Of a stretch of DNA of 64,000 bases, positions 8,156 to 53,929 are shown in pieces. This DNA is from Siphonodentalium dalli (taxonomy: Eukaryota > Mollusca > Scaphopoda > Gadilida > Siphonodentaliidae), in NCBI GenBank assembly GCA_032622095.1, contig CP136062.1:134123282-134187281 (forward strand). Direction: 5' to 3'. A program made the translations under genes and the position numbers. Position 1 is the stretch's first letter. Each line of letters opens with the position of its first letter. A model generated the notes under the pieces. The model saw only the letters and a list, made by a program, of their open reading frames with translations. It made no database searches and had not been told where the DNA came from.

Positions 8156-8333
8156 TCATAATTCCTCGTGGTGCACTTTTAAGATGGTTGGTTCTCCCTG
8201 AACGAAAGTTCTGTCCAGGGATAGTTTTCTGTCAGTATGAAGATTGACCTGACTTCTGTGATAGTGAGACATCTGATTCAACAAGGCGTTCAGGATGTTC
8301 CTCTGTCTGGTTATATCTTCACGTTCCGATCGT
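8156..8333 (-). CDS. PDI-like gene, terminal exon: end of ERp29/PDI-D domain and HEEL signal
   Basis: This last exon of the long minus-strand gene encodes RRSEREDITRQRNILNALL, the pattern that ends ERp29-type helical (PDI-D) domains. A tail of about 40 residues follows, ending KVHHEEL and stop. HEEL fits the KDEL-like ER-retrieval consensus, so the product should be a soluble ER-lumen protein (inference from family rules). Two AGs are available: TTTTCAG|GTGACC and, 8 bp further, CCTTAG|A. Only the second keeps frame with the upstream exon at 14470-14525 (AAA AG|A gives Lys-Arg). The first would need a different upstream exon. The tail between the NIL motif and HEEL is longer than in typical ERp29. 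Confidence 0.82.
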
Positions 8334-8796
8334 CTAAGGTCACCTGAAAACAACCATGCGGTATACGTATGTTGTCATGTCTGCACGATGCACTTGTCTA
8401 TATGGATGTAGACGTCGTTGACTGAAAACTATAACGGCATAACCCTGGTTATTATGTGTGGATATATAATTCATAGCTCATAGACATGATGATTTTATGT
8501 AAACGGCAAAGTTCACAAGTATGCAATAAGAACCTACATGCGCATAAAACATAAAACAGTGATTTTCATACAACTTAAAATATATTCAGGGTTACAGAAC
8601 CACTACAATACAACAACAGCAAGATATTTTTAATTAGATTTTATATCGGTATTTCGTTTGTCATGTAAAACAAGTTATCCTGTTAGAGACCAAACTTGAC
8701 ACACAAAGAAGGATTAGAAACCAAAATCTCATTTCGAACGATTATTTCGCAAACAATATTTTGTGTTTATACTGTTTTTAATATAGATATCGATGC

Positions 8797-9150
8797 AAGT
8801 CTGAGTTTAGTGTGCATGTCATTTGCAGAATGAGGTCCCCAGAGGGTAAATTTAGTGACGCTATTCCGCATAGCGGTCTAGTATCACCAAATTCACCCTC
8901 TTGTGACCTCATTCTGCTTGGCCTCATCTGCTATGGGTGAAATAGACTCAGATTGAAGTTCCCAAGTGGTGAATATTGTGATGTACACCCATTGGGAACC
9001 TCGATTATGCAATGTGTCAATTTGGGGATATACTAGAGAAACTAAACTAAAACAGAAATAGAATCTATGAAGAAGTTTCTATAGAAATTTGATAATAAAG
9101 AAACTTTCCAGAGAAGCTTAATGGGGCCTAAGCAGAATGAGATCCCCAGA
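8797..9150 (-). mobile_element. MITE-like CAGAATGAGGTCC composite, inverted copy
   Basis: It carries the hairpin GCAGAATGAGGTCCCCAGAG...GTGACCTCATTCTGC and the adjoining GGTGAATATTGTGATGTACA arm. The order is reversed relative to 1895-2303. Confidence 0.7.
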
Positions 9151-9710
9151 TGGTGAATCTAATTATGCTAGCCCGCTAAACTCAGGCTTGTATGGATGGT
9201 GCGGCATTTACGTGCATGCAACTGGTAGAGTACACTGTTAGACTCACCAAAACTAATTTTGTTAATCAATCTCTCTCTTTCGTCATCCAACGCCAGATGA
9301 CCAGAATCAGCTATCAGGTAGATGAGGTGCAAGTAATACTCCCCTTGTCTGAAAATTGATAGACATTCGTGTTAGGTTATACATGTATATATATATAAGG
9401 TATTAAGATATAGACCAACCAGCGTATGTCTATCCTTGAAAGTTCGTACATATATAGCAAATATTTAGACATGTTCGTCAATGGGCATGTTCCCTTCGCC
9501 CATACTACAGTTTGTGGTATTGGTCGTGCAAAATGCATTACTCGAAATGTATCTAATATCCGAAATACAACATGAATTCTGGCAAATGTTTTTGCAACCA
9601 ATCTCCGAATACAATCCTATGACAAGGTGTCAAGATGACGACTGAACATATTTATATGCATCGTGATCAGTTTTGTATTGCCTTCGAGCGGTCATCCGTC
9701 GAAAACTTAA

Positions 9711-9900
9711 AGGTACTCAATCCGACTAAACACCCCTAAATTACTATTTCTTTGGCTTCGGGCAGGGGGGGGGGGGGGGGGTTCAGGAAAAAAATTACGG
9801 ATACAAGGTGGAAATTTTGTGTTTTTCAGTTTTGGGGACCCACCACCCCGGGAGCGTAAGTTTTTTCCACCCAGGTCTGGGACACCCACCCCCAAAATTG
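9711..9900 (+). mobile_element. left end of an AGGTACTCAATCCGA-family element, with a G17 run
   Basis: TTAA at 9707-9710 is followed by AGGTACTCAATCCGACTAAA and the family's CTTTGGCTTCGGGC. A 17-base G run (9765-9781) then interrupts it. The matching right terminus was not located nearby, so the copy is incomplete or split. Confidence 0.6.
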
Positions 9901-10199
9901 ATGAAAATCATGTAAATTGTACTAAATAATGTGTTGTTGGCAGGGTAAGAGTCTCTCATTGTGTCTGCACCAGAACTGAGAGAACGCTGATCAAGTACAC
10001 CCACACAAAATAAACAAACAAAGCACATGGCTGAAAAATATGCCAACAAAACCTTTAAAAACCCAAATATTTATGGTTATAAATGTAAAATACCCACTTT
10101 AACAGGATAGTTGTGTCCCTTATTAGCAATAGGTTCAAATGTGTGCATGTGTAAAGTAAAAACACCATCAATTTGATTAAATAAACACAGTTCCAATCC

Positions 10200-12420
10200 T
10201 CTCCCAGTGGCGGATCCAGTAAATTTGAAAGGGGGGGCGCTATGTATTATTATATACCGGTATACGATGCGTAGCATCATCCGAGCCGCGAAGCAGCGAG
10301 TGGGGAAGAGCAGGAGATGGGGGTCTAACCCCCTTCACGTAAGTGGGGGTCCGGGGATTTTTTTCGTATACTACATTCAAAACGACGTGTTTTCCTGTGT
10401 TCTGGACCCAGTAATATATTGCTTTATATTAGGCCTATATATGGAACGGGTAACAATAACCTTCAGTACAATTACGGTATACTATGGAAAGTTAGTGATG
10501 AAAGATCAAAGCTTCTTTGAACAGTGAACTTATCTTCTGAAAGTCTGTGCAAATGTGAATTATCTGGGCGACATGGTGATTTTGGCGCGCCGGACATGCC
10601 CACGGAATAAGCCCCCGGAATCACCGGGTGCCTATGCTTTGGGCTGGTGCATGGGAGAATATTTTGTAATTCAGGATGAATACTCGCAATCATGGCTTCT
10701 AGTCGGTACTAGTATAGAGGTGTTTCGGCTGGTATACAATGCATCTATGCAACCTCTTAATCCCTCCATTAACCATGCTATTTTTTTCAGTTTTACTTCT
10801 AATAGCCATCAGCTTCATGATACACCAGCAAAATAAGTCACCAATACAAGCCAAACGGGTGGTCAGATCACACTCCAATCACGTACTCGTTTTATTAGTA
10901 TAAACACAGTTTTCACAAAAAAATATCTGACAAGGAACTGATTAACTAGTATTCCTATCCCCTATTCATCTACATTCTGGTTGCATCCATAATGTTAATT
11001 AAAATATTGTATGTAAATTATTATCTGTTGTGTAAATGTTTGGGTTATGAATAAATATATGTTCAGTCAATCAGCTGACTAATGACGATAAGGACACATG
11101 GAAACCGATGCTTTGAAGGACTCGTGTCAGACTTTTTTTTATTAAGCAATGGAAGATGCGTATTTGTCGTGACCTGAATATGTCTTGTTATCACACATTC
11201 GGTCCAATTAGGGTGCCACAACATGTGATGGAAGATATAACCAATTTTAAATGCCTTGCATATATACCATTGGAAACGAACCAGCAATGTATTTCTATAA
11301 TATAATTCGAAAATATACTATATGTATACGGTACATGTATACCATAGTAGTATGGCGTATGTGCCTTTAGATAATCTCTTTACGATGATACTGCCACCAT
11401 GCAGTGCGTTTTATAGTCCGGGCGTTGATCGGACTACATTGTATAACCTATAGAGTGCACTGTAGACGACTCATGTTTATCATTCATTCGTTCTTTACAT
11501 ATAGATGGAATTGTCTAAATTTTGACTCCACTTTCAGAATTGCTATATTTCTTTTTGATAGAAATATTCAGTGTTGAAACTTCGGGCGCACAAAACTTGG
11601 CGCCGGGCGAGATATTCTCCGATATAAAATGTCGCAGAAATTGTTTGCTCTGCATGGCGAAAAATAGCCCGCGGACCTTCATCTCGGGATGTTGGATTCG
11701 CGCCTTGCATGGCTATACGGTCATATCGTGGAATACCAAATTGAAGTCATTTCAAACCCACATTTTTTTTTTAAACTATACGTTTGAGTAATGTAAACAT
11801 GTAAACTGCTGTATTTACATGCGCGTTAGCAATATTCAGTGCGGAATCTTCGGGCGCCCGATACAAATGGTGCCAGGATCACCTCGCAAAAAAAATCCTT
11901 GCTCTGGCGAAAATAGGGGGGCGCCCCCCTTGGATCCGTTTGTCTCCATGTGGGAAATCACTGATGAGCAATGAGGAGCTCCCCTTAAAATCATTCTAGG
12001 CGAGTGGCGGGTAGCTCTCATAAAAAAGGCCGAAGGCCTGAGGAGGAAGTATGGGAGGGGGTCAGGAGGCTTCCCCCGGAAAATTTTGAATATTAGATGC
12101 TCTGAGATTGAATCTGGAGCCTTTTAATAATCCAATCAGTGAACAACACGTTATTATATGACTTAAGTCACTGTAGTCATTTATCGACATCGACCATGTA
12201 CTTCGACCACGTGGTCACTGTATTTATCATTTATTCAATATCTTGACTGATATCATTAATATAAACAAATGAGGCCAACGGGTTTTCAGCTTTTTGACAG
12301 TAAATCAATCTAATTAATGGGTCATACATTTTGAATTAATTCCTCGATCTATTTTAGTAAATAGCGCACATAATAAAAAGAAAACATTCGTGTTTTTAGT
12401 GAATATCGGAATTACCGATC
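10200..12420. other. intron of the PDI-like gene, repeat remnants only
   Basis: The stretch contains a GTGGCGGATCCAGTAAATTT remnant rich in G and C runs (10207-10360) and otherwise AT-rich sequence. It is part of the large intron between the exons at 14470 and 8333. I see no exon that would supply D-domain residues. Confidence 0.5.
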
Positions 12421-12498
12421 ACAGTGAGATACTGGAATCATCACTCGGGGTCATGGCCTAAAGGCCACTCGTGATGATTCCAGTATCTCACTGTGACC
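12418..12498. repeat. perfect foldback hairpin
   Basis: ATCACAGTGAGATACTGGAA and its complement TTCCAGTATCTCACTGTGA form arms of about 30 bp around a loop of about 25 bp containing GGCCTAAAGGCC. Confidence 0.8.
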
Positions 12499-12894
12499 AC
12501 TCATGAGATACTTCCGGTATTCATTCAAAAAACGCAGGTAACCTCTGTATAATAAGTTTACAAAGCCATGATTAACTATGAGAAAAGATGAGAATGAATT
12601 TGTTTTCATTGTAATTTTTTTCCTCGACCAAAACCGGACCCACCCCATGGTTTCAACTGTTAAAGGGAGAATTTGTGGACAAAAAATTAAAATATAGAGC
12701 CCCCCTCACTTGTATAGGGCTATATCATGCACTACTATATGAATCTGATTGTTTCAATTCATTTTGAAGCTGTAATTTGTCTTAGAAATGATTTTGGAAA
12801 AAAATTGCATGACATCAGAAAAAATCTGCATCCCGGGCTCGGAGACACCCACCCACCCGGTCCTTGTATCCTGTAATTTTTTTCCGACCACCCC

Positions 12895-14469: not shown

Positions 14470-14525
14470 CTTTTATCCTCTTTCAAAGTAGCGACCAATT
14501 TATTAATCTTTTTCGTCAATCTACC
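14470..14525 (-). CDS. PDI-like gene, exon in the ERp29/PDI-D helical domain
   Basis: The acceptor is ATTATTTTTAG|GGT and the donor is AAAAG|GTAAGC. The exon encodes GRLTKKINKLVATLKEDK plus a split codon, ending in phase 2. It fits the Glu-x-x-Arg-Leu-x-Lys-Leu-Ile segment that precedes the NIL motif in ERp29-type D domains, and it joins the terminal exon in frame (LKEDK-RRSERED). It is also in phase with the exon at 17972-18043, but roughly 35-45 residues expected between them are absent. Confidence 0.75.
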
Positions 14526-15742: not shown

Positions 15743-16205
15743 CAACTTTAGATTTTTTCTTATGTAAGTTTTTAAAATGCGGTTGTGGTTTTACATCCTT
15801 CGAGTTCATTTCAATTAATTCATAACTACTTCAGTATCAGAATAATTATTTGGAGCGCATAAACACCGGTCTTCACAACAAATTGATGCAGTTATGTTAA
15901 ATTATGTAAAGCCGTGATGGTGTTTAATATGCACACGTATCTTCATTAACGACTAAGATCTGAAACTGTTATCAAATCCAAGCATTTTACGAAAATAGTT
16001 TTGTTAGTTTTAAATTCGCACAGCAAGGTGTGCGAATTTAAAACTGAGCGAAAAATAGTACTGCGCGAATTTAATTATGAATAAGGTAGTCACAAATACT
16101 TGCGTAATCAGCATCAATCACAATGTCACAGGCATTGCGAAAATCCATAGCGGCATACATAAATATATTACGCCGAAAGAGATCAAGAAACTCATAATTG
16201 AGAAC

Positions 16206-16436
16206 GCTCTTTATTATCTATCACTAATTTTGGGCGATGGAAGCGTGGACGCTATTTATTATCTATCACTAATTTTGGGCGATGGAAGCATGGACGCTAT
16301 TTATTATCTATCACTAATTTTGGGCGATGGAAGCATGGGCGCTATTTATTATCTATCACTAATTTTGGGCGATGGAAGCATGGACGCTATTTATTATCTA
16401 TCACTAATTTTGGGCGATGGAAGCATGGACGCTATT
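16206..16436 (+). repeat. 45-bp minisatellite, five near-identical units
   Basis: Five head-to-tail units of GCTATTTATTATCTATCACT...GGCGATGGAAGCATGGAC differ at only a few bases. Because 45 is a multiple of three, the plus strand stays open and would encode YYLSLILGDGSMDAI five times (frame 16077-16448). I see no splice or homology support for translation. Confidence 0.9.
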
Positions 16437-17004
16437 TGTAAGAGATGATCGTTGGATTTGTTTGCTAAACTGACCAAATTTTCAAAACGTGTTATAACTA
16501 CCTCTTTTGAGCCAAACCAACATATTAACCAGCTCGTGGGTTCCATCTAAATATGTTCTGGTATAAAAAAAACATACATATTGTGCTGTCAAATTGGACA
16601 AGGCATCTTTGACATGCTAAATTTTAAAATGCATAAAACAACGTTAAGTTCATTAGTTTAATTTAGTGATTGTAATACATACAAATTGACATAAAGTATC
16701 AGAGATATATGTAAATTACACTTGTGTGTATTATGTTTGCATGTAGATACTAAGTAGTTCGGTTATAACGACCGTGGTCGTTTTGGGTTTCTTTCAAAAA
16801 TACGAAATTTTTTTTATATGTTGGCATGCAAGACCAAAATATCTTAGTCCAGTGGTTCTAACCATAAACATGGGGCGTTGATCCAAGTTCAGAAAGGACT
16901 TTATTTAGTTTTTATTAACGTGCATTTTTAACGTGAACAAGACATGATACAAATAACGAGGAATTTTCAAGCTTTCTCTGTAATATGACGTGTACTGGCA
17001 TCTA

Positions 17005-17971: not shown

Positions 17972-18043
17972 CAAATTTGAGCCTTTCACAATCTTCTTCA
18001 TATTCTGTTCAATGATCTCGTCCAGCTCTTCGATACGACCGGC
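17972..18043 (-). CDS. PDI-like gene, first exon of the ERp29/PDI-D helical domain
   Basis: The acceptor TTATTTTCCAG|GCC and donor TTTG|GTAAGA are both strong. Twenty-four codons encode AGRIEELDEIIEQNMKK then IVKGSNL. The Ala-Gly-Arg-Ile-x-x-Leu-Asp start is the hallmark of the D domain that follows the last Trx module in ERp29-like and D-domain PDIs (family knowledge). It is phase 0 at both ends and follows the GDLLDD end of the exon at 28018-28110 across a 9.9-kb intron, exactly as the family requires. Confidence 0.88.
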
Positions 18044-21884: not shown

Positions 21885-23930
21885 GTGTCACACGAAAGGG
21901 TAGAAATTTTGACGCTATCTCCAATTATCCTTGCCCATGGGGGTTCCAAAACACTGAGGTATCCAGGGCGGAGCAGGTGGAAAATATATTTTGTTGACCT
22001 TTTTGGAGTTTTTGACCTGCAAATTTTAGTATAATCAGGAAAACCAATAAAATAAGACAAATGTTGAATAAAATATATTTGAATATAAGATATTTATTCT
22101 ATCTGGTTGCTTAACATTTATGATGTGCAAAAAGTTACATTATCCAACAATTTTTGTGAAAAATTCACGAAAATGCCAACAAAATGCATAAATTGCAGTG
22201 CTTTTTCAAAAAAGTTTTCCAGAAGATTTCCCATAAAATTTTCAATTTTTGGTATAAAGCTCTCATTGGTGAATCAAAATTTTAAGCATTATATACCTGA
22301 TTTATTAATATCAACAACACAAGCAGTGATATCCAACAAGCCGAGATATTTCCAAAAACTGAACCCACCCCCCCTAAACTGATTTTCTATCTGAAAATAC
22401 CTGTCAAGTCAGAATAGCCCGTTTTCATTCCGTTTGTTAACCAATTCAGAGTCTTAGCATATATTATATCATGGAATTAGAATGTATCTGAGGATGTTTA
22501 TGTTATGGTAGAGTCTATTTTGTTAAATATTAATTTTTTTGGGGGTAAATTAGCTAAAATTTTGATTATTTTTAAAGGTACGGTTGGCCTTGGCGGTGGG
22601 TATCCTGTGAAAATATTTACACCCGTCAAAAACCGCCACAAACAGAAAGAACATCAAAATGTAGACAGACTTTGTCCGTATACAAATAAGAAATATCGCA
22701 TAAACAGTATGTTATTGTCATCTGTTTGACCATTGTTATGTAAACAAAAACATAAAAAGTTACTTTTCTGGTGTTTATTTATATTATGATGGTAAACATA
22801 AAGAGCGTTCTTTGTTGGTGAATTCCTGATATGGAACTAATAAAGAGCGTTTATGCCATTTGTGTGTGATTAGCCAGTAGCATTGTGCTGTCTTCTGTAA
22901 CACAATCATGCTCTTGCTTAGGTAAAATATAGTAGGTCTTTGTGATAACACGCTGTTAACGCGATGGTCATGGTATATATGAACGAAACTGTATGCGTTT
23001 TAATGTTTTTCTGTTTACGGTGTTTGGAACAAATATGAATATATTCGACAACTAAGGCCTCACGTGCCTTTAAGTGAAATTAAAAAAAATAATTCCCATG
23101 ACTTTGTCAGTTTTGTAGATACAGCTGCACAACATGGACCACAATAATAATAAATTCTTCCCTAATATCAGACATGAAATGCTATAATCATGTACCAGAC
23201 CACAATTAAGAAAGAAAGTAAAACATAACCCTACTCCAAGATAGTGTTCTCAATGCTTTCAATTTTATGCTATACTAAACTCGAAAGGTCGTTCATACTA
23301 GTTGATAGAATTCATATAATAAATTCATATATAAATAGTTCTGCCCACGGATTATGTTAAATCTCATCTTCACTGTCACTGTCAATTTCATCAAATGTGA
23401 TGGTATCAGTCAATATAATTTCTGTGCAGCATCTTACAGGAAGAATGGTTCAAACAACTCAGGCTGCCTATCGGCCGTCCATCCATGAAGTGCTACACCG
23501 GGAGTGGTTGATTTGGCAACGGTTGCAAGTCTCCACTGTTTTGCTATTATATTGGCTCGTTTTGAGTGTAGAACTAAAGATTCCTCACATGGTGGAAGTG
23601 CATAAAGATCAACTACCTTTTGCTGATTCTCAAACTTCTTCTGGAACTTTACCCACCTAGCTTTATTCAATTTTCCCGAATGTGGACCATACATGTATAA
23701 GGCACATGTTAACTCCTTGATTGTATTAAGCGTGTCACTGTCCAAAAACCAATTCGTTCTGACTTCTATATTGTCTTGATGGTCTTTCCAGCAACTTCCA
23801 GAAGTGTTTTTTTCCTTTTCGGAACAACGATGAAAGGTAATTATTACCTGTGAAGGAATGGAACCCAACAACTGCATTCTTCTGTATATTTGGCTGCCAA
23901 AATGTGGAAATGGTAGATATTGACCCAGCG
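21885..23930 (+). repeat. left arm of a large inverted duplication
   Basis: From GTGTCACACGAAAGGG to the GAATGCAGTTG region, this arm matches 26285-27652 in reverse complement. The arms are separated by a 42-bp minisatellite. The left arm is longer because it carries a TTAA-flanked insertion (22576-23069) and extra sequence at its inner end. Confidence 0.85.
22576..23069 (+). mobile_element. 494-bp TTAA-flanked insertion inside the left arm
   Basis: TTAA at 22572-22575 precedes AGGTACGGTTGGCC, and CACGTGCCT precedes TTAA at 23070-23073. The right arm lacks the segment: its reverse complement reads straight through GATTATATTTAAGTGATT. It is therefore an insertion that postdates the inverted duplication, or an excision from the other arm. 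Confidence 0.8.
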
Positions 23931-23994
23931 TGTCCCGCAATCGCTTAGTAGTTGTGGTTGATGTATAAAATTGGATATTCTGCCTTATATACAT
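23434..23994 (-). pseudogene. relic of a multicopy repeat-associated protein family, copy 1
   Basis: The 186-residue open frame contains CSEKEKNTSGSCWKDHQ, then ALYMYGP, KARWVKFQKKFENQQK and LPPCEESLVLHSKRANIIAK. I recognise the order (FTGCD/GKGKK-like segment, YG, then LPPC, L-x-x-H, RAN, W) as the C-terminal part of uncharacterised proteins present in many copies in invertebrate genomes, often linked to mobile DNA. This attribution is from memory and untested. Here FTGCD is replaced by FHRCS, and the frame ends after LFEPFFL. The paralogue at 26290-26687 lies in the other arm of the inverted duplication. It is probably non-functional. Confidence 0.55.
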
Positions 23995-24539
23995 TGAACA
24001 CTAACATGTATGATGCACCTAAGTTAATTTTTACTATTGTCACCACTGACATTACCAGAAATATTGGATTTTTTCCTCACAAACTTGACATAAATAAAAC
24101 TTTTCAAGTAAAATGTAACTATGTTTGGTATGAAAGGCGTTTATTGTTTTGATCTACCTTACATGTGTCACACAAATGTGTTTATAATCCAAATTACTCA
24201 AAATGGCTTCCAAAATGGCAACCATATTTTACATATATCCCGAACATTATTCTCTGCGTTTCCGAAAATGTAGCAACTTGTGACTCACTTGGTTATTTTA
24301 CATGTTAGCTAATCAACTGACAACTAAATGTTCTATTCTGGTTGTCACATTTCCTTGTGGGGCATAACAAATTAATTTTGAAGTTGCCTATCTGTTTTTT
24401 TTCTTCCGAGAACCTCTTTTTGGATACTGGCTATATTTTTTTAATAAATGGACAGAACTTTGAAATGGAACTGAAATTAATCATAATCTGTGGCTATTCT
24501 GGCCTATTAGGATAAAAATTGATCAACACGATACAGGGT

Positions 24540-26125
24540 GGAGGTCAAGGTGGCAACCAGGGAGTTACCGTGTGGTCATAGGTGATGTGAATATGTATAA
24601 AGGGAGTTATTGTATGGTCATGAATGTTGTAAATAGGTGTACATGATTAGCTATATGATCACGATAGGGTGGGCATGGTGAGATATATTGGTAATCAACG
24701 AGTGAGTGTATGGTCATGTGTGCATGAGGTGAATAGATATACAGGGAGTGACTGCATGGTTGTATGGTTATGACTACCCAGTACAGGTGTACACAATGTG
24801 GCTCAATAGGCATTGCTGTGGTTTATGTAAATAACGAGAGTACCTACATTGTCATATGTCTGTTTATGTATATATGGAGTGACTGTATGGTCATGGGTTG
24901 GATGCACAGATGTACACTGTGTGGCTGTATTGTCACAGGTAGGTGTATATATATAAATACATGTGTTGTCTGTATGATCATGGGTGGGGTGAATGGATAA
25001 ATCGACGTGCAGTTATGTGCAATGCGTACAGGTGCACATGGAATGGCAGTAGTCATAATGGGTATATGTGTACCTGGTGTAAGTAGAATGGTCAGTGACG
25101 TGTGTGTGGGTGGTCATGTGTGGATGTATATGTATATATCGAGTGGCTATATGACTATTGACGGGGCAAATATGTATACAGTGAGTGACTCTATGGCCAA
25201 TAGTGAGGTGAATATGCTTTCAGGGAGTGACTGTATGACCAATGGTGAGGTGAACAGGTATACAAGGAGTGACTGTATGAACATGAATGTGGTGAATATG
25301 TATACATTGGAGTGTATGGTCATGACTCAGGTGTGGGAGTATACCTGCATGGCTGTATCGTCACATGTAGTGTGTACGGATATATACAAGCGTGGCTATA
25401 TGGTTATGGAGAGGTATGTGTATAAAGTGAGTGGCCATATCGTCATTAGTGAGGTGCATATGTTTACCTGGAGTGATTCTATGGTTATAGTTGTGAGTAT
25501 ATGTATAACTTGCGTTGCTATTTTGCCATGGGTTTGATGAACATGTATATAGCGAGTGACCTGTGACCAATGGTAAGGTGAATAGGTATACAATTATTGA
25601 CTGTCTGATCATGAATGTGTTGAATAGGTACACAGGGGGTGACTATATGGTCATGGGTCAGGTGTATGAGTATACCTAGTGTGCCTGCGTGTGGGCATGG
25701 TTGTATGGGCATTTGCGGGGTGTACAGGTATACACGAGTGTGAATATATATGGTCATGGGTGAGGTGTAGGTATATAAAGCGAGTAGCTATATGGCCAAT
25801 GGTGAGATGCATACATGTATACATGGAGTGACTCTATGATCATGGAGGGGTATATGTTTATCTTGAATGGCTATTTTGGCCATGGCGAATAGGTATGCGG
25901 GGATTGACCTATGGCCAATGGTGAGATGAATAGGCATACAAGGAATGACTTATGATCATGAAAGTTGTGAATATGTGTACAGGGAGTGACTATATGGTCA
26001 TGGGTCAGGTGTACGTGTATAGAGTGAGTGACTATCTTGTCATTTGTGCGATGTTTATGTGTATATATGGAGTGACTGTATGTTACTGGGTTGGTTGTAC
26101 ATGTGTACCTTGGGTTGCTATTGCT
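24540..26125 (+). repeat. ~42-bp degenerate minisatellite, ~1.6 kb
   Basis: Units built on GGAGTGACTGTATGGTCATG and GGTGAGGTGAATAGGTATAC repeat about every 42 bp, with substitutions and short indels. The period is a multiple of three, so long frames open on both strands (for example 25007-25537 plus and 25361-25633 minus). These are repeat artefacts. The array sits between the two arms of an inverted duplication. Confidence 0.88.
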
Positions 26126-26284
26126 TTCCACAATAACTCAACGATATATTAATCGAAAGAGAGGTCATGTCAGAGAGTTCTCCATCTTGATGGCGTTTAT
26201 GCACGATGGAGGAAACGTTAAATGATTTACCCCTGATAATAATTAATCAATTTTGATGCTAATGGGCAGGTGATTCACGTCAGT

Positions 26285-27652
26285 GATATCGAGATGTCAA
26301 ATGTACAGAAGAATGCACTTATTGGGTTCCATTCCTTCACGGTAATGATTACCTTCCAAAAAGGAACAAAAAGTTGTCTGAAAGTTGCTGGAAAGACGGT
26401 CAAAATATATGGAAGTCATGGCATATTTAGGAACGAATTGGGTTTTGGACAATGACACGCTTACTACACTCGAGGAGTTAGAATGTGACTTATATGTTCA
26501 ACGTTCGAGAAAAGTGAATACAGCTAGGCGGATAATGTTCCAGCAGAAATTTGAGAATCAGCAGAAGGTTCTTGATCTTTCTGCACTTCCACCATTTAAG
26601 GAATCTTTATTTCTACACTCAAAACAAGCCAACATGATAGCAAAACAGCGGAGACTTGCAACCGTTGCCAACTCAACCACAGATTAGATTGCATATAATC
26701 CGTGGGCAGAACTATTACATTTATTATATGAATTCTATCAACTAGTATGAACGACCTATCGAGTTTAGCACAGCATAAAATTGAAAGCATTGAGAACACT
26801 ACCTTGGGATAGGGTTAAGTTTTACTTAATTTCATAATTGTGGTCTGCTACATGATTATAGCATTTCATGTCTGATATTGGGGAAGAATTTATGCTTATT
26901 GTGGTGCATGTTGTGCAGCTGTATCCATAAGACTGACAAAGTCATGGCAATTAAAAAAAAAATCACTTAAATATAATCAAAATTTTAGTCAATTTACCCC
27001 CCAAAAATCAAATATTTAACAAAATAGTCTCTACTATAACAAAAACCTCCTTAGGTACACGCTAATTCCATAATATATGATAAGACTCTGAATTGTTTAA
27101 GAAAACGGAATGAAAACGGGCTATTCTGACTTGACAGGTATTTTCAGATAGAAAATCAGATTTAGGGGGGTGGGTTCAGTTTTTGGAAATATCTCGGCTT
27201 GCTGGATATCATTGCTTGTGATGTTGATATTAGTAAATCAGGTATATAATGCTGAAAACTTTGAAGCACCAATGAGAGCTTTATACTAAAAAATGAAAAT
27301 TTTATGGGAAATCTTCTGGAAAACTTTTTTGAAAAAGCACTGCAATTTATGCATTTTGTTGGCATTTTCGTGAATTTTTCACAAAAATTGTTGGATAATG
27401 TAACTTTTTGCACATCATAAATGTTAAGCAACCCAGATAGAATAAATATCTGCTATTCAAATATATTTATTCAACATTTGTCTTATTTTATTGGTTTTCC
27501 TTATTATACTGAAATTTGCAGGGCAAAAACACCAAAAACGTCAAAACAATATATTTTCCACCTGCTCCGCCCTGGATACCTCAGTGTTTTGGAACCCCCA
27601 TGGGGCAAGTATAATTGCAGATAGCGTCAAAAATTCTACCCTTTCGTGTGAC
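26285..27652 (-). repeat. right arm of the large inverted duplication
   Basis: Reverse complement of 21885-23930 minus the TTAA insertion. The matches include the 91-residue shadow frame at 22107-22382 (MLNIYDVQKVTLSNNFCEK in both arms) and the family relic at the inner end. Sequence identity is high but not perfect. Confidence 0.85.
26290..26687 (+). pseudogene. relic of the same multicopy protein family, copy 2
   Basis: Two overlapping frames (26270-26455 and 26385-26687) together correspond to the copy at 23434-23994. The first holds GFHSFTVMITFQKGTKSC, the second FENQQKVLDLSALPPFKESL and HSKQANMIAKQRRLATVA. A frameshift between them and loss of the YG motif show decay. The homology to copy 1 is direct from the sequence; family identity is inferred. 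Confidence 0.6.
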
Positions 27653-27739
27653 ACTGGACTATTATACATGCATGGCTACCCGTTCAGTAAGATATCTGTA
27701 TAATAATTCCACAAGCGTTCAGACGTTCAGATATATAAT

Positions 27740-27920
27740 TTGAACAAACAGCCGTGTGTTGAACTTATTTGGAACAGTTAATACCAATGGATTATATGAA
27801 GCCATTGTATTATCTATCTGTTCGTCGTCTGGCTGTCGTCTGTTTATATTCATGAACATACACCTTGATGAATAATAGACCATTCCAAAGTACATGTATA
27901 CTTTTATAACTGATGTGAGA
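27740..27920. repeat. dispersed repeat around GGAAATGTTCAGATAACAAG, partial
   Basis: TTTGAACAAACAGCCGTGTG...CTGTCGTCTGTTTATATTCA...AATAGACCATTCCAAAGT belongs to a family also seen at 2800-3020, 30845-31085, 33175-33385, 36545-36730 and 62200-62425. Confidence 0.6.
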
Positions 27921-28017
27921 AATCATTTAGTCAAGAACAAATTGTGTTAAATCAGGAGTCGTGCATAGGCCATGCATAGTTGTTTTACATGATTATAAGT
28001 AGTTTTTGTTTCCTTAC

Positions 28018-28110
28018 GTCATCCAATAAGTCTCCATCGCTCGCCCTCTGTGTCCCCATCTTATCGTTGATAAAGGCCGTCATTTCAAGGGAGTCGAATC
28101 TCCCACCATA
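28018..28110 (-). CDS. PDI-like gene, exon closing the third Trx module
   Basis: The acceptor CTCCTTTTCAG|TAT and donor GATGAC|GTAAGG are strong. Thirty-one codons encode YGGRFDSLEMTAFINDKMGT followed by QRASDGDLLDD. The Y-x-G-G-R...F-I-N-x-K-x-G-T-x-R...G-x-L pattern is the end of a PDI Trx domain and its link to a D domain. Phase 0 at both ends joins KKR upstream and AGRIEEL downstream. This exon, with the one at 17972-18043, is the clearest evidence for a PDI/ERp29-type product. Confidence 0.92.
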
Positions 28111-29099: not shown

Positions 29100-29166
29100 C
29101 CTCTTCTTTTGTTTGGTCTTCCCAGTAGAATACCAATAAATGGCAGGGTAACGTGGTGCGTTGAGC
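29100..29166 (-). CDS. PDI-like gene, exon with the Trx cis-proline region
   Basis: The acceptor GTTATACTTACAG|G and donor AAGAGG|GTAAGA are strong. The exon encodes LNAPRYPAIYWYSTGKTK then QKKR. The R-Y-P-A-I-Y-W-Y segment matches the conserved cis-proline strand (FPTIxYF) of thioredoxin folds, followed by G-K. One leading base completes a Glu codon from the previous exon; it ends in phase 0. Confidence 0.92.
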
Positions 29167-30738: not shown

Positions 30739-30788
30739 TCGTCAACGAACATGCTTTGTTTGTTGATATCCACCGTCCCAAATATGAC
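30739..30788 (-). CDS. PDI-like gene, exon with Trx strand beta-3
   Basis: The acceptor ATACTTTACAG|GTC and donor GACGA|GTGAGT are strong. Sixteen codons encode VIFGTVDINKQSMFVD plus GA of a split Glu. V-I-F-G-T-V-D-I-N corresponds to the VxFAKVDC strand of PDI Trx domains. Phases agree with both neighbours (0 in, 2 out). Confidence 0.88.
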
Positions 30789-32394: not shown

Positions 32395-32586
<192 letters not shown>

Positions 32587-32690
32587 ATATATATATAGGC
32601 GCTAGTATATAATTTACCTTTTCGTCATACGGGAAGATTTCCGCCATCGTATTAAATACAGCATGTGCTTCGTCGTCGTCGTCGTCGTCG

Positions 32691-32692
<2 letters not shown>
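32587..32692 (-). pseudogene. partial tandem duplicate of the next PDI-like exon
   Basis: From GCGCTAGTATATAATTTACC to TACAGCATGTGC this segment repeats 32770-32843 almost exactly (one clear substitution, CGGG for CCGG). On the minus strand it keeps the donor AAG|GTAAAT and codons for AHAVFNTMAEIFPYDEK. Beyond that the GAC codons have expanded to six and run into a GA microsatellite, so the acceptor and first codons are missing. If read, it would begin with Asp repeats. Confidence 0.75.

Positions 32693-32772
<80 letters not shown>
32693..32772. repeat. (CT)n-(TA)n microsatellite between the duplicate exon copies
   Basis: TCTCTCCC then CT repeats, switching at about 32734 to about 38 bp of TA repeats. 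It separates the duplicated exon fragment from the intact exon. Confidence 0.93.
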
Positions 32773-32774
<2 letters not shown>

Positions 32775-32792
32775 CGCTAGTATATAATTTAC

Positions 32793-32863
32793 CTTTTCGT
32801 CATACCGGAAGATTTCCGCCATCGTATTAAATACAGCATGTGCTAAGTCGTCGTCCTTTGGTT
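32793..32863 (-). CDS. PDI-like gene, exon with the cysteine-less active-site region
   Basis: The acceptor AATATTCCAG|AA and donor AAAAG|GTAAAT bound 71 bp. With the last base of the upstream exon the codons read K-PKDDDLAHAVFNTMAEIF then RYDEK. By position this follows the Trx strand ALVLVYSE, so the usual WCGHC loop is replaced by S-E-K-P-K-D-D-D and the module has no redox cysteines. It is phase 1 in and 0 out, matching both neighbours. A partial tandem copy lies immediately downstream (32587-32692). Confidence 0.87.
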
Positions 32864-33896: not shown

Positions 33897-34066
33897 TTTC
33901 AGAGTATACCAGGACTAATGCATGTTGTGTCGAAACTTGTGTCGTCGTTCGAAAGTTATCAACGGTCAATTCCACAGAGTAATGTCGCTTTACTCCGGAG
34001 AAGTCGCCACCAAGAACATCTTCAACCAACGCGAAGAGTGAATCCACATCAAAGTCATCCGCATAT
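33897..34066 (-). CDS. PDI-like gene, exon joining two Trx modules
   Basis: The acceptor CTTTTTTTTCAG|A and donor TCTGAAA|GTAAGA are strong. The exon begins YADDFDVDSLFALVEDVLGG, the C-terminal helix of one Trx module. It continues HYSVELTVDNF...QHALVLVYSE, the first strand, helix and second strand of the next. V-E-L-T-x-x-N-F is a classic PDI domain start. Phases (2 in, 1 out) match the exons on both sides. The open frame continues past the donor to 33763, but splicing at 33897 gives the family-consistent product. Confidence 0.92.
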
Positions 34067-35419: not shown

Positions 35420-35594
35420 ATGGTAGGTTCGGCTGTGCCTGGGATAAAATATGCAATAGACGGGAAGTGTGTTGCTCCCAGTGTGGATATCATCTTCTTA
35501 TTCTTCACCTTTGCCAAGTAGATATCGTCGTCGTCTCTAAATGTCTGATACAGCTGTAGAAAGACCGAGTAGGCCTCCCGACATCGGAAACAAC
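35420..35594 (-). CDS. PDI-like gene, exon with CFRC thioredoxin active site
   Basis: The exon runs from ATTGTAG|GT to ACCAT|GTACGT. It encodes GCFRCREAYSVFLQLYQTF, then DDDDIYLAKVKNKKMIS and LGATHFPSIAYFIPGTAEP. C-F-R-C occupies the CxxC position; Y-L-A-K-V and H-F-P-S-I-A-Y-F are the beta-3 and cis-proline strands of a thioredoxin fold. The weak-looking donor GTACGT is preferred because it joins in phase to give EPT-IYADDFD. The acceptor is poor in pyrimidines: a 460-bp MITE ends only 16 bp away. The first strand of the module must come from an upstream exon that I could not find. Confidence 0.8.
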
Positions 35595-37890: not shown

Positions 37891-38809
37891 TTAGACTTGC
37901 ATATATATTAAGTTATATTATATTTTCTCTCCCTTCTTTTCACTCATCTGTTCTGATTTTGTTTATTCCACTTATCAGCCTTCTCCATATCTACACATTC
38001 AAGTTCTATGTATGCTCGCCCAATCTTTTATCTGGGTCCCACCATCTCAAGATTGTTGTCTCAGTGATATGCATTGTTGCAGTCTACAGTCCCATGCCAA
38101 GTTCCGATACAATTTTGACTGGGTTATCTGGTCTGATCAGGTATAATGAGTAAAATTAATGCTATAAATGAATAGCTTTTTTCATTTTATTTACATTAAA
38201 GTTTATTCATGTGCTACATAACTGTCCATTTTCATCTGGAACCAATAGCATTGGTACATGGCAATGTGATCGGATGTAAAAGGCGAATTCCTGAGATTTG
38301 GTTCGTAATCTGGATTTCTGAGAAGCATCATGCCTATATATCCACACTAACTACACCCTAAGCACTGCCCTAAGTGTCATACACACCTTAACAATGATGC
38401 TGAACACTTTGAGGCATTTATATTGAAGAAATGTTGTAAGAGGAAAAAATTGCGACCACTCAGGAAAAAATTGACTTTTTCGCAGCTGAACCACCCACCC
38501 ACCCCGGCCTAATGTATGGAAAAAAGTGGATGACCCCCCCCCCCCTGACACGCCCGGTGCGACAGACACACCCTTTGCAAGCTTACTACCATGATTTATC
38601 AGCTAATTACCGAATTAATCAGCCTATCGCTCTAGCTTGCAAAATTAGTCAACTTATCTTGAAACATCGGGGGTGCCCATGGGAGCTAAACAGAAATAAA
38701 AACACTCATCGACATGTATGTATATTTACATACCTTTTGGGTAGAGATACAAGAGCACGAAATGTTTCTTTGCTATCTGGAAATCAGAATAAAGATGTGT
38801 ATAATTATT

Positions 38810-39910: not shown

Positions 39911-40002
39911 CTGGTTGAAATTTTTATTTCCTATCACATCCAACTCCGCAAATATCACTGAAACTGCTTTCAGAATCACTAAAGCGCGCAAAAATGCATT
40001 CC
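39911..40002 (-). CDS. PDI-like gene, exon of the first Trx module
   Basis: The acceptor ACATGTCTTCAG|GG and donor AACCAG|GTATAC bound 92 bp. After a split Gly codon it encodes NAFLRALVILKAVSVIFAEL then DVIGNKNFNQ. V-S-V-I-F-A-E-L-D matches the beta-3 strand of PDI Trx domains. Phase 1 in joins the exon at 53832-53929 (VFE-G-NAFL); phase 0 out joins 36941. The 14-kb upstream intron is filled with repeats. Confidence 0.75.
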
Positions 40003-40689
40003 CTGAAGACATGTCTGTTTAACCATGTGCGTAACGTATACTGATGGGAACATCTGTTATGAAACCTCAACGATCCACAAGGATCGACAAACAATTTGAA
40101 TTGCGGATGCTATAATTTTGTTGAGCGACAAACCCTTAATCCGTTTGTCAATGTGTCACACGTGTTTCGATGGTAGATTTTAGATGGAGGAAAATCAAAA
40201 TATCACCAGACAGATATAATCGATAACAAGGTTACTATAGGCGATGCAGAGAAATCTTAAATAGTGTATAATTATATCATGGTTAATGATTTTACACGGT
40301 GGGGAATCACGTGGTTACGATTTGATGAGTATCACGCATTCAAAATGGCCGAGGCGATCTAAAACGCGACCAGACGCGAGGAAATAAGGTAATAAACTAA
40401 GATATGACATATTACATATTACAGCTACGAGCAGATGCTATAATATTTTTCAATCAAGCTGATACCTCATGCATTTATGTCCAAATTCATATTTGTTTGC
40501 TCTAACATTTTGACCAACGTTGTTAGTCGAGGGATTCTCCAAGATGTATGGGCTGGTGTATTCCACGCACCTCCGACTGGCAGAATGTTATAACGAGAGG
40601 CCGATCATGATCGGCATATGCTTAACCCATACCTTGGCGATAGTGATCAGCTATTTTCAGTTCGGACGCGAAAATCCATAAGCCATAAC

Positions 40690-46700: not shown

Positions 46701-46839
46701 ATCCTCATTTTTTGGTCATACAATTAATGAATATTATTGTTTTATTTAATAGTCCGTGAGCCAATTCCCAGAAAGCCTCTAGTTTAGAAGTTGGCTGCAA
46801 CCCCCACCCCCTCCAATAAAGGTTTTTTTTTTATCAAAT

Positions 46840-47600: not shown

Positions 47601-48297
47601 CAACTATTTCATATTTTTTTAATTTTTATTTGAATTTTTGTACAAAGCCGATCATATATTTTTATATTTCAACTGGTCACATATGGCTACCAAAGGCTGA
47701 TGAGTGAGGCTCACATTTTTAGGGAGGTATTTTCTTATTTCCTGGCGCATTTTGTGACACTAGACACAAATTACGATATATATAGCATCGGACACTTCAT
47801 GTTTGATAATTATTGTTTTAAGACGGCGTCCTAAACGGTCACCAACATCGAATATTTTCAATCTTACCGACACAAATTAAACTGGGTTCGTCATATGCGG
47901 ATAAGGGAATTAGTCATTAAGAAATGCATTCACTGGTGCTCCTCCACAAACTAAAGAACTCTAATATCTTGTCTCAACTCATTTATTGTGATGAGTAATT
48001 GATTGACGAAAATGCCCCCAATAACTCTGTTCATCCTCAGGGTAGCCAGTTAAGTAAAAATTGGCACTACTTCGGTTATTCCATTTCTAGGCCAGTACGA
48101 GATTCTCAGAAAGCCTCTAGTTTTTGAGATACCCCGCACTTCCGAGCCCTCGAGAAAATCATGTCCCAGGCTGTTAAACTACCTTTGGTACATGTGCCAT
48201 GGGTGTGCGATTTTTGATTCTCGATTGGCTGCTATGAAAAATATTGACTTTTGTGAGGTTCTGAGCCCGAAAATACACAAAAATGAATATATCTTAA

Positions 48298-48868
48298 AGG
48301 GGTACTGTACGCCATTTTCATTAAATTTCCGGTGACAACAACGATCTAATATCGATAATATATAGAAACATAAGTAATTTGAGTCGAAGATGTATTCTGT
48401 AAACGCTCAGGTTAATATGCTATCTTAAAATTTAATAATTTAAAAGTTAATAATTTGATATAAATTAAATTTATGACTGGAGCCATAAAATGGCGTCAAT
48501 TAAATTACGAATTTCCGTAATCAAACAAAGTAATTGAGGGATACTGGATTGTTAGACCGATCGCTTAAAATATTATGATGATACGGGGAGAACACTCAAG
48601 CCACTCACTGACTAGCGAAGATACAATAACTTAAATGATTATATGGGACTAGTATGCCTATAATATAACTTTTATTTGATTCATTTGGTTGAAAACTGTA
48701 CAAAAATTACTCGACAACGACAATTTGTATTTTTGCATTCCGGTAAATTTGTCATCCGTAACACTACTTCGTACTCAACAGACTATCAAATAATGAAAAC
48801 ATTGTTACCTTATTCTCCGACTCGGAGACTATAGAAACCAACAACAACACTTGGCGTACAGTACCCCT
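48298..48868 (+). mobile_element. TTAA-flanked MITE, AGGGGTACTGTACGCC family, copy 2
   Basis: TTAA 48294-48297, AGGGGTACTGTACGCC, ..., GGCGTACAGTACCCCT, TTAA. It is nearly identical to 7163-7745 apart from a 12-bp deletion near GACCGATCGC and scattered substitutions. Confidence 0.9.
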
Positions 48869-49068: not shown

Positions 49069-50322
49069 TCAAACCTGTATAAACTTTCTCCATGATGGCC
49101 CGAACTTTCCGTTCATCCGCAATGGTTCTAGGTTGGGTATCTCCCTGTGGAGTGAAGCTGACCCAGCATTCAGATCACACATTGTAAGTAGGTTCGACAT
49201 TACGTCCGCTCTTAGATGTGATGTAAGGTCATGGCGCTCGATGGCCTCGACACTTCGAAATGTGCCTTTCAAGAAACCACAATCTCTATTGAGAGTTTGC
49301 TCAATTCCCTGGTGGGACCATATATACGCCATTGAATGTTGCCGAAACGTTTCGAGAACGGCGGACTGTATGAAGTCCCTGACCCATAGCAGTGTACACA
49401 ACTGGATGCAAGTCTTACAGTGTGCTCATCTCTGCAAAGTATAGACATTCCCAACGCGCGTAGTTTCGCAAACATATCCAAGTCGATTGCGAAATCAGAG
49501 TTTATCTCGGCTGCAACATAGTTCAACATGCACTGAACCATACTCAGATATTCGTCCCAAAATGCGAACGTGACTGAAAGTTCGCAGCAACGCGACCTAA
49601 AGTTGGAGAATAGGTCTTTGAATTCACACATTGATGATGTCACATGATTCATAGCTTTAAGCACATCCTCTTCAATGGGATCAGTAACACCGCTACTGAA
49701 GACCATCACCAAATCATCCATTGGGACCTGCAATTTGTCTCTGATATTGTTCAGCACGGTAAATAATCGGGGGAAAAAATCAATAAATTCAATTTTAGGG
49801 CCACCGTTATGATAATATGGCACAAGAATTGGCTTATTTCATTCTAACAATTTATTTCGGTCACGAAAATAATCTCATGATCTCCAGGGAAAGTTCTGGA
49901 TCGAATCTATGGTCGATTTATCGAATTATGTTAAAAATAGCTTTAAAAACCATTAAACCCTATTTTAAAGGACCGTGCCAATCCGGAATAATAATTCGCA
50001 CAACCGTGCATTTGTCCCAGGGGTCACTGCAAACGGAAATAGCAAGAAATATCGGGGGCTCGGAAATGCGGGGTCGATTGGATTTTTCGAAAACTCGTAC
50101 TGGCCTATTCATACACCAGTACATCCTGACATGTCGGCAGCCAAATAACAACAATTCGCATGAATCATTGTAGCCAATTGCAAATCGCAGTAGTTCCATA
50201 ACTGCATTTGGATAGGGATGAAGTGCCATCAATGTGTTGTTGATGTGTAGGACCTCCAGGTCCCTCACGAAGCGACCGCCGATGGCCGTCATGGAAAACC
50301 AATCACATATAATCCCATGCAC
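49069..50322 (-). pseudogene. relic of the multicopy repeat-associated family, N-terminal and central part
   Basis: Three minus-strand frames follow each other: 49960-50322 (VVRIIIPDWHGPLK), 49269-49823 (AFWDEYLSMVQCMLNYVA) and 49069-49401 (GIEQTLNRDCGFLKGTFRS). FW-x-x-YL-x-MV-x-x-LL and IEQT-x-NRD are, from memory, motifs of a widespread uncharacterised invertebrate protein family; the relics at 23.4 and 26.3 kb look like its C-terminal part. Frame changes and truncation mark it as broken. The plus-strand frame 49001-49444 is its shadow. Confidence 0.55.
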
Positions 50323-50329
50323 CCATATA

Positions 50330-52990
50330 TCTCATGCACGGTAACAATGCTGTCAGTACGGTACTTCTGTTGCGGGGTCATTTTAGCCATGCCAATTTTC
50401 AAGCTTGAGGTAGACAAGCAGAACGCCCATGGCTTGATTATATATTAGCGTGGGGGCGGACCGGGGCGATCCGATAGACTGCATGTCAAAAGGTTCAGTA
50501 CTTCAGGATTTTGTTTTACTCTATTTAGCTGTTATGTTTCTGCCCAGCTTGTGGGTATATATTCTGGGTCAACTGAAATCATTTGGATTTGTTAACAATA
50601 CGAAGATTATAATATGAGCATGGTGTTTATCTATGCTATGAACCCGACGGGTATGAAAGGGACAATGAGAATGGACTGGCTGGTCATGATTACGCCTGAA
50701 TCTTGCTTCAGCATTGGTTATATATTCGTTCTTATGCAAGTGCATCTGGGTGCTGACTATTCCCGCTCTGCGTCCATGTTATAACATTATTTACACGACA
50801 CTCAAACGGGCATATAGGTAAGGGGGCATACTTTGGGGACAACACGTGTCACTATGCCTAGTGTTGTTATCATATAACCATAAACATGTATAGCATGCAC
50901 TAGAGACAGGGCTATGGTCATATATGCCACACAAGGTATGGCTATATATGGATACCAAATTGCATAGGGTATTAAGGACATGGCATTTCAGAATCGTTGT
51001 GAGTTATTGTGCCAAGTAATTGCCTGATAGTTTGCACGAAAAATGTGTTGCTTAAGAAGTCTGCATTTGGTGTTATTGTTCTCGTTTTACAACAGGAGAA
51101 ATTTATCGTAATTCATCGACTTGAATACATGTCGGCTTGTCACATAAAGCACATACAAATTCTTGGCAGGATGTACGTAGGTCATCATCGATATTAGTAG
51201 ATTGTTGAAGTTGCATAGTATGATACATGATTGCACCTTTTTTTCATAAGTCATTATGCTACCTTTTTCCTGCAACCCGAGAATACGTACAATCCTGGTA
51301 TTCAGGCAAGGCTTCACATATCCTGTACCCATAGCACAGTTCCAGACAATGCCAAATATTGATCAGGCGGTGACAACAAAGACTCCTTGGCAGGCTTCTA
51401 TTTTTTCGCGAATGGTCGAGTGCTGTTTCAAAATCACTGAATTATGTTTGCCGTGGGGTCGAATGTCACGTGATACAGTCCGTGAATGGCGAAGTTCGCT
51501 TAGAGTTAGTTCCTGATCTCGTGCTAGTATTATGTTGTATAACCGAATACTGGAACACACCTTCTACCACCAGCAGCCACAGACTCCTTAAGAAATCACA
51601 TTAACACATCTTCGTGCGAACTATATCAATGATTGGCACATCATACTGACTCCCCAGCGTTGTGTACCATGTTCTGACAGCCATAGTTGGTCACTCTTTG
51701 AGTCCTACAAACCAGTCGGATTATATTTCCTCCCGATCTACTGTGACTACTGAGCTTTGGCTGCAAAGATTCATGTGAATCTAACAAATGATCTTGTTTC
51801 AACGCAGACTGGCCATGTACCGATGTATGTGAGAATGTCTACAATAACCGAAAGAGTGTAAATTTTGACGACTCATATGATGAGCAGAGTGAGAGAACAT
51901 TTAAGGACTATAGATACTCAAATTATAGAACAGGAAGTAGTAGCATGTCTTGGAAACTGTTTGGCAACACAATATTATATACTGCAAAGGTAATTTCTTT
52001 ATTGACAAAAAAGTCCTCTGTATAGCAACTAATTTCGTTAATATAATTATTTCACCTGAACACATATTTACACCAGAGATAGGCAACTTGACAATAAAGG
52101 CTGGTAATTTGGGCATACAATTTCAATTTTCTTCAGACAACTTATGTATATCGATATTACTTATCAAAACTGATCCAAAAAGCACATGTTAGTGATGATT
52201 GTTTTAATCTTTCTATATCTTTTTATCAAGTATTCCCCCAATAAATAAGTCCTTAAGATAATAAATTACTCATTGGCTTAAATTAATTGAAACAATAGTA
52301 GGGTTCTTCGGTTTGTTTACGGTTACCAGTTAACTCATCATTAACAATTCCCTTGTCCCTAGATAACGAACTCAGTCACGTTTGTGACGGAAAGTGTGAG
52401 AAACTTCAATTCTGTTGGCCGTTTTTAGATGCCATCCTAAACTTATATATTACTTCAAGATTCTTTATTGTTGTTCTAATTACATGTGTAATACACGAAC
52501 AAATCAAATATAATAGATAGCACTGTGGTGTAAACAAATAAAATAGTAAGTATAACAATTGAAATTTAATAAAGTCATTGTAAACATTTGCCGTCGTCGC
52601 ATGTATATGTCTAGAGATGGTAAGGTAAGGTGGTGCTGCGGTGATCCGAATAATATATAGTATACCAATAGTTGCAAAGTCAATTCCTGTGGGGTATACC
52701 CTCGACAAGGAGTGAACTATGCAACATGTTGGGCGTATCTTAAAAACCCACACAACTTGTTCATGTGCACAGTATCGGTTGCGCAAGTAATGCCATATAT
52801 ATTGTCAGTTGTGATCACACTCCCGACATGCGCAGCACAAATAAGAAAATACCATTCTGTATAAGTACTATAACGCAAGTCTCACTCATAAACCATTATA
52901 GCCATATGTGTTCAGTTGAAATATATATGTATATTATATTTCCATAAATATTAAAGTAAAAATTGAAAAATATACGAAATAGTTGCCAGA
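50330..52990. other. intron of the PDI-like gene, no exon seen
   Basis: Mostly unique-looking AT-rich sequence. Short frames on both strands lack paired splice sites or family resemblance. This is the middle of the 13.8-kb intron between 53832 and 40002. Confidence 0.45.
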
Positions 52991-52999
52991 AAGGTGATC

Positions 53000-53760
53000 G
53001 TATGAGGTTTTAACTTACTAAATCTAGACCAGTGTTCTCGTGATGTTATACCATAGCCTATCAAAATTTAATGACAATGCTGTAAGTTTTAAAATTCTCA
53101 TTTTTCATCATTTGTTTTCAAATTTTAATCTTAGATCATGTTCAGACACCGTTATTTATAATTCCCTTCATCACTCTATACACTGTTTCAGTTTATGCTT
53201 CTAAAAACAACTTGACATGCAGCATTGTAAGTGTAAACTACATAATTCGTTTTTCTGCAAAAGTTATATTTTAGGGGGTGGGGTTGAGTTTACGCTCATA
53301 TAACATTTTCACAGCAATACTCTTGGCATTCCATTATTTAAATTTTTGAGCCATGTTGCGGATCAATAGCCCATGTGGTTCAGAAGGTATAGCCATTTAT
53401 ATGTGACAATTTTTTTTCAAAATCCAAATCATTTTTCGCGATTTCAAAATATTTATCGCATTTTTTATAACTAGCTCATAAAATGGTCTAGTTTTGTATC
53501 TCGTGTCATTTTATGATCATTTCTTAATAATATAAATGATATATTGTGCAGTTTATAACCGCAATAATTTGTTTATGCCCTGACACATGTACTCGAGAAA
53601 ATTTTCATTTTATTTTAGGGGTAAGAGTTGTCTTCCCTGAAAAATCAATTTTGGGACATTTTCTGAAACGGGCAACAAGCAAAATCTGATGCGCCATATG
53701 ATGACCTTTAATTTGATATATAAAACCCTTTGTTGGAGGGGGGGGGGGGGGGGGGGTGCA
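53000..53760 (-). repeat. inverted relative of 46840-47600, with a G19 run
   Basis: GTTGTCTTCCCTGAAAAATC and TTTTAGGGGGTGGGGTTGAG match the other copy in reverse complement. A 19-base G run (about 53738-53756) is inserted just before the exon at 53832. Confidence 0.65.
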
Positions 53761-53831
53761 GCCAACTCGAAAAATATCTGGTTTGGTCCACGGACTATAG
53801 CATCTAACACACAATAAAATTATGTCCATAC

Positions 53832-53929
53832 CTTCAAATACAGTGTCTAGACTTTTTAAATCCCACATTGTTACTTGACAATATACCACTACACAAAATC
53901 TACCATTCAGCCTTATGACAGACAAAGGA
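53832..53929 (-). CDS. PDI-like gene, exon opening the first recognisable Trx module
   Basis: The donor GAAG|GTATGG is reasonable; the acceptor AATGAG|T is weak and its position is uncertain. The frame reads PLSVIRLNGRFCVVVYCQVT then MWDLKSLDTVFE. R-F-C-V-V-V-Y-C has the hydrophobic-strand-plus-cysteine look of a Trx beta-2 strand but lacks CxxC. The phase-1 end joins the next exon as VFE-G-NAFLRAL, which is why I include it. Confidence 0.62.

Follow-up and report, generated by a model that had tools for sequence, protein, structure and literature searches.

A predicted gene for a protein with two thioredoxin modules and an ERp29-type D domain in the scaphopod Siphonodentalium dalli

Members of the protein disulfide isomerase (PDI) superfamily that join two tandem thioredoxin (Trx) modules to an ERp29-type C-terminal (D) domain, in the order a-a'-D, have been reported in plants, according to passages of PMC8836223, and in Dictyostelium, Aspergillus, and Neurospora, according to passages of PMC3017771. 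The same portion of PMC8836223 states that this type has no animal ortholog, and an excerpt of PMC7687155 describes the D domain as unique to ERp29 within the human genome. Here, we describe a predicted gene for a protein of related design on the minus strand of a 64,000-nucleotide stretch of the scaphopod mollusk Siphonodentalium dalli (assembly GCA_032622095.1, contig CP136062.1, positions 134,123,282 to 134,187,281), which is referred to as the window throughout. A prior, sequence-only reading of this DNA had placed the D domain of animals mainly in ERp29 and its combination with multiple Trx modules in plants, fungi, and protists, and this distribution agrees with the relevant excerpts of PMC8836223, PMC3017771, PMC10938136, and PMC7687155.

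Architecture of the predicted protein and its closest relatives

The predicted product of 395 amino acids comprises, in order, a signal-peptide-like start, a Trx module with the active-site motif CFRC (Trx1), a Trx module without cysteine (Trx2), a full D domain, and a terminal HEEL. From the CFRC module onward, this is the succession of parts that had been read from the sequence earlier. A match to the ERp29 C-terminal family, which had been set beforehand as decisive for that reading, was indeed found, with Pfam ERp29 (PF07749) recognizing residues 259-353 (E 4.4e-9; 37.5 bits against a cut-off of 24.3). Pfam Thioredoxin (PF00085) matches the whole protein in two stretches (E 6.1e-9; 36.3 bits against a cut-off of 23.5), placing it in the PDI superfamily, the members of which carry at least one PDI-type thioredoxin-fold module. 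Each Trx module must be regarded as diverged, because when taken singly both fall under the Pfam cut-off (20.7 bits for Trx1 and 22.1 bits for Trx2). The NCBIfam model TIGR01126 (pdi_dom) also matches in two stretches (E 2.1e-12), its 47.3 bits lying below its own cut-off of 107.2, and Thioredoxin_6, OST3_OST6, and AhpC-TSA likewise match in Pfam below their cut-offs. These E-values are somewhat flattered, and the agreement of exon phases is no independent count, because the exons were chosen partly by their resemblance to Trx or D domains, as was the frame or acceptor at positions 29166 and 18043.

Several tests against chance bear on the exon set (Table 1). When single exons were omitted in runs in which the tail was also trimmed, the D-domain score of 40.3 bits fell to 30.3, 24.8, 17.4, and 27.5 bits without exons 9, 10, 11, and 12, respectively. 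Similarly, the 22.1 bits of Trx2 fell to 18.2 without exon 5 and to 19.1 without exon 8, while omission of exon 6 left no Thioredoxin match and omission of exon 7 no Pfam match, such that every exon tested (8/8) contributes to the score of its domain. None of ten decoy exon chains, drawn from either strand of the window, matched Thioredoxin or ERp29 with an E of up to 0.1; three of them weakly matched other families (best E 0.0044). Exon-selection bias affects the cysteine and codon results less than the E-values. The predicted protein has only two cysteines, C50 and C53, both in CFRC; random open sets from the window encode a mean of 15.1 and a minimum of 3, with none of 2000 having two or fewer. 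GC content by codon position is 0.48/0.32/0.49, and neither the GC1-GC2 nor the GC3-GC2 difference of the gene was reached by any of 2000 random stop-free sets. Its overall GC stands out less, being reached by 120 of the 2000.

The closest described systems each share a part of this design. Plant PDI-S/AtPDI11 possesses two tandem Trx modules and an ERp29-type D domain, which in AtPDI11 binds calreticulin (passages of PMC8836223), but its active sites occupy both modules (passages of PMC8836223 and PMC3017771), whereas here one module has CFRC and the other has none. Plant group IV, moreover, is described in the corresponding part of PMC3017771 as having no endoplasmic reticulum (ER)-retention signal, as against the HEEL of the present protein. 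The fungal proteins ERp38/TigA and Erp41 of Komagataella show the same order, a-a'-c, where c is ERp29c, and Erp41 has unequal and unusual motifs, CSHC and CGYC, as given in an excerpt of PMC10938136; CxxC is kept in both of their modules, whereas the second module here lacks cysteine. Dictyostelium PDI-D, with two Trx modules and a D domain (passages of PMC3017771), is reported there and in PMC7687155 to have no ER-retention signal and to depend on its C-terminal part for staying in the ER, unlike a protein ending in HEEL. Animal ERp29 and Windbeutel (b-D) are similar in the full D domain (here matching 1-94 of the 95 positions of PF07749), in the EEL-type end, in an arginine aligned to Arg223, and in a Trx module (redox-inactive in ERp29) adjoining the D domain. 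They differ in having a single Trx module, whereas here a CFRC module stands in front of it, and Windbeutel is said in a portion of PMC7506106 to keep a CxxC. Finally, the a' and a domains of classical PDI provide the top solved-structure match of Trx1 (chain 4ekz; E 5.1e-8 over two stretches, with 23.6 bits for the best single stretch), but they carry CGHC and a charge-pair Glu, as opposed to the CFRC and Tyr44 found here. PDI is not known to have a D domain.

Proposed function and descent

Trx1 retains CFRC, the cis-Pro loop FPSIAY, and K77. In HMMER alignments to PDI, the position of the catalytic-pair Glu is occupied by Tyr44 and the position before the first Cys by Gly49, given the PDI residues that we take to be the buried Glu and Lys of that pair. 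Glu-Lys pairs are named in general terms in part of PMC3017771. The change of Glu to Tyr44 (with K77 kept) and of Trp to Gly would be expected to make the CFRC module a weak isomerase with more oxidase, reductase, or escort activity. At the would-be active site of Trx2 stands KPKDDD. A hydrophobic N-terminal start and the C-terminal HEEL are both visible, and the latter presumably works as an ER-retrieval signal. For comparison, the KEEL of ERp29 is described in a passage of PMC7506106 as a leaky retrieval signal. When the D domain was aligned by MAFFT with human ERp29, the D domain of rat ERp29, and windbeutel, R326 fell at R223 and Ile344 at L241. Mutation of R223, L227, or L241 in ERp29 abolishes binding to the P domain of calnexin and calreticulin, as stated in an excerpt of PMC7687155.

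Taken together, the locus is probably a functional nuclear gene for a PDI-superfamily protein of the ER lumen, with the modules a(CFRC)-b(no Cys)-D-HEEL. Its most likely role would be that of an oxidoreductase-chaperone docked to calnexin or calreticulin by the D domain. Such a protein could enter the ER by means of its signal peptide and be returned by HEEL, while the D domain would hold it at the P-domain tip of calnexin or calreticulin, much as in ERp29. The cysteine-less module might bind a client or space the other modules, like a b domain, and CFRC could make or reduce disulfides in the glycoprotein clients that the lectin delivers, or form mixed disulfides with them.

A number of observations weigh against this view. 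At the N-terminus, one lysine lies within the hydrophobic segment of the putative signal peptide, and exon 1 outscores a rival exon at 55.0 kb (discussed below) by only 3.6 bits in the PDI match. In the D domain, L227 of ERp29 aligns to Lys330 and Cys157 to an arginine in the MAFFT alignment. Searched alone against the PDB, the D domain matched windbeutel only weakly (E 0.12), no better than it did the unrelated APH(2'')-Id, and gave no match to ERp29 at E up to 5; Trx2 and D together matched neither ERp29 nor windbeutel there at E up to 10.

With regard to classification, the protein resembles the a-a'-D group in having an ERp29 C-terminal domain behind two tandem Trx modules and departs from it in lacking a CxxC in the second of them, only C50 and C53 being present. 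Because the second active site is missing, we do not file the protein as a full member but regard it as a variant that would work like the group. Two accounts of its descent are compatible with the proposed function. One is that it is a plain a-a'-D ortholog of PDI-S, ERp38/TigA, and Dictyostelium PDI-D that has diverged while doing the same oxidative-folding job. The order and number of modules are equal to those of the group, but the described members have two active sites, one of which is gone here and the other altered to CFRC, and we consider this account unlikely. The other is that an ERp29 of the b-D type gained an N-terminal CFRC module within the lineage, with Trx2 and D corresponding to ERp29 and Trx1 being new. 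The cysteine-less Trx2, the EEL at the end of the tail (compare KEEL in ERp29), and a blastp match of the D domain to human ERp29 (E 1.8e-4, in a set of four compared sequences) all speak for such an origin. Against it, Trx2 does not clearly match either ERp29 or windbeutel (blastp E 0.29 at best, and nothing in the PDB search), and the D domain begins with GRIEELD rather than GCLPVYD; we consider a gain of this kind quite unlikely.

It is possible, as a tentative proposition short of an even chance, that some invertebrates keep an a-b-D protein in which the D domain docks a CFRC redox module with a single active site to calnexin or calreticulin. If so, one polypeptide would do what vertebrates divide between ERp57 (redox) and ERp29 (docking and escort), and the printed view that proteins with two Trx modules and a D domain are absent from animals would be contradicted. 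An animal gene of such form would mean that the combination either existed in the ancestor of animals or was assembled anew, and that ERp29 itself may be the shortened remnant of such a protein. Moreover, CFRC as the sole cysteine pair would provide a clean subject for redox assays. Among the matches listed in a search of the open-licence literature, no title named an animal protein with two Trx modules and a D domain, which is weak evidence, and database entries with labels such as ERp29-like may well include orthologues.

Gene structure and the 5' end

The gene was rebuilt from open stretches of the minus strand with splice signals, starting from a phase-free list limited to the top-ranked stretches. 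That list held exons 3, 4, 7, 8, 10, and 11, together with one stretch starting at 8343 and one ending at 17972. Exons 1, 2, 5, and 6 were added, and exon 11 was recognized as the fitting link, by sequence reading and phase-constrained searches. The resulting gene has 12 exons from 40012 to 8156, a span of 31.9 kb (Table 1), with the frame kept throughout and 11 introns of 904 to 9974 bases, all of them GT-AG and in phase.

Table 1. Exons of the predicted gene, in order of transcription, with splice-site scores where available.
Feature	Position	Strand	Content and splice sites
Exon 1	39911..40012	-	ATG, signal-peptide-like MSSGNAFLRALVILKAVSVIFA, first Trx1 strand; codons 1-34; donor GTATAC, score 0.8
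Exon 2	38734..38776	-	Trx1 strand ahead of active site, IAKKHFVLLYLYPKG; acceptor 4.4, donor 5.2
Exon 3	35420..35594	-	Trx1 active site CFRC and cis-Pro loop FPSIAY; PDI match; C50 codon 35592-35590
Exon 4	33897..34066	-	End of Trx1 and start of Trx2 (VELTVDNF...VLVYSE)
Exon 5	32793..32863	-	Trx2 active-site region without cysteine, KPKDDDLAHAVFNTMAEIF; acceptor -0.7, donor 3.7
Exon 6	30739..30788	-	Trx2 strand, VIFGTVDINKQSMFVD
Exon 7	29100..29166	-	Trx2 cis-Pro loop, LNAPRYPAIYWYSTG; acceptor 4.4, donor 4.9
Exon 8	28018..28110	-	End of Trx2 and linker to D domain
Exon 9	17972..18043	-	First helix of D domain, AGRIEELDEIIEQNM
Exon 10	14470..14525	-	D domain; donor 7.1
Exon 11	9248..9348	-	D domain with R326 (codon 9272-9270), aligned to ERp29 R223
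Exon 12	8156..8343	-	Last D helix (RQRNILNAL), tail of ~40 residues, HEEL, stop

From exon 2 through exon 12, the previously proposed exons were borne out: each is flanked by AG and GT, except that the last closes with HEEL and a stop, and their phases agree. Of the twelve minus-strand exons over 45.8 kb that had been claimed, the strand stands and the extent does not; the number holds if the second exon of that set is 39978-39911, which we infer to be the 3' part of exon 1.

With moderate confidence, the predicted start of the gene is the ATG at 40012, ahead of which an in-frame TAA stands at codon -3. Addition of exon 1 raises the Pfam score of Trx1 from 17.0 to 20.7 bits (+3.7) and its match to 4ekz from 29.1 to 36.4 bits; the exon's donor is weak. 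Improbable, by comparison, is a protein of three modules as earlier proposed, with a degenerate Trx module encoded by a 5' exon at about 53929, or one with other 5' exons at 53.9 kb, at 55.0 kb, or outside the window. An open stretch at 53911-53832 does have a donor (score 4.7) that is phase-compatible with the acceptor at 39978. However, the 34 amino acids encoded at ~53.9 kb give no Pfam match at E up to 1, are too short for a domain, would bring two cysteines, and, when placed before the CFRC module, leave the Thioredoxin score unchanged (20.6 versus 20.7 bits). The 53.9-kb exon was accordingly rejected as part of a degenerate Trx, leaving two Trx modules rather than three. The rival exon 55061-54948 does yield a gain (Pfam, 17.0 to 18.6 bits; PDI match, 29.1 to 32.8 bits), but it was set aside since this is smaller than the gain from exon 1, which also supplies the ATG and its upstream in-frame stop. 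Lastly, a decaying copy (pseudogene), which the divergent active site and the partial duplication of exon 5 might suggest, is very improbable in light of the open reading of all 12 exons, the GT-AG ends of all 11 introns, the codon periodicity, and the confinement of cysteines to the active site.

The duplication in question is a 175-bp tandem repeat (1.9 copies with 87% matches by Tandem Repeats Finder) at 32516..32855 of the minus strand, lying between microsatellites. It copies most of exon 5 along with its donor, a (GAC)n run replaces the acceptor side, and the duplicate differs by two residues, having P for R and, near its start, E for L. It reflects either a recent duplication event or an artefact of the assembly, and the second copy, being without the acceptor of the first, was set aside as a coding exon.

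Other features of the window

The observed/expected ratio of CpG is 0.81, a value that, like the long introns and the short dispersed repeats described below, is consistent with a large invertebrate genome but is no proof of one. Neither Rfam at gathering scores nor a tRNA scan found anything in the window. Pfam searches of 40 of the 95 open stretches returned one Papo_T_antigen (E 2.4e-4) and one RHD_RETREG1-3 (E 0.0057). Three pattern matches to viral contigs were obtained, none of which was a relative by tblastn (0/3). An open stretch at 63288-63414 of the minus strand, which follows the strongest acceptor of the list (7.0) and runs into a stop, had no Pfam match at E up to 1 and was set aside as part of the gene; it could represent the terminal exon of a different gene.

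Repeats of several kinds are also present. The short dispersed repeat D3 (~100 bases) occurs in eight copies between 15658 and 59852, and it is overlapped by the D6 family, of which there are nine copies of 67 bases with inverted ends. Blocks of 271 and 300 bases are repeated 41 kb apart (7159-7734 and 48294-48857) with 97 and 96% identity, representing either a young mobile element or a duplication. A 45-bp minisatellite at 16204-16437 (5.2 copies, 97% match) is read through in frame by a plus-strand open stretch at 16059-16448, and a degenerate minisatellite with a period of ~42 bases occupies 24573-26119. The GC skew is 0.218 in 24001-28000, versus at most 0.093 in size elsewhere. Finally, the open stretches 23437-24000 (minus strand; no Pfam domain) and 26382-26684 (plus strand) encode proteins that are 62% identical, and they are possibly pieces of one mobile element.

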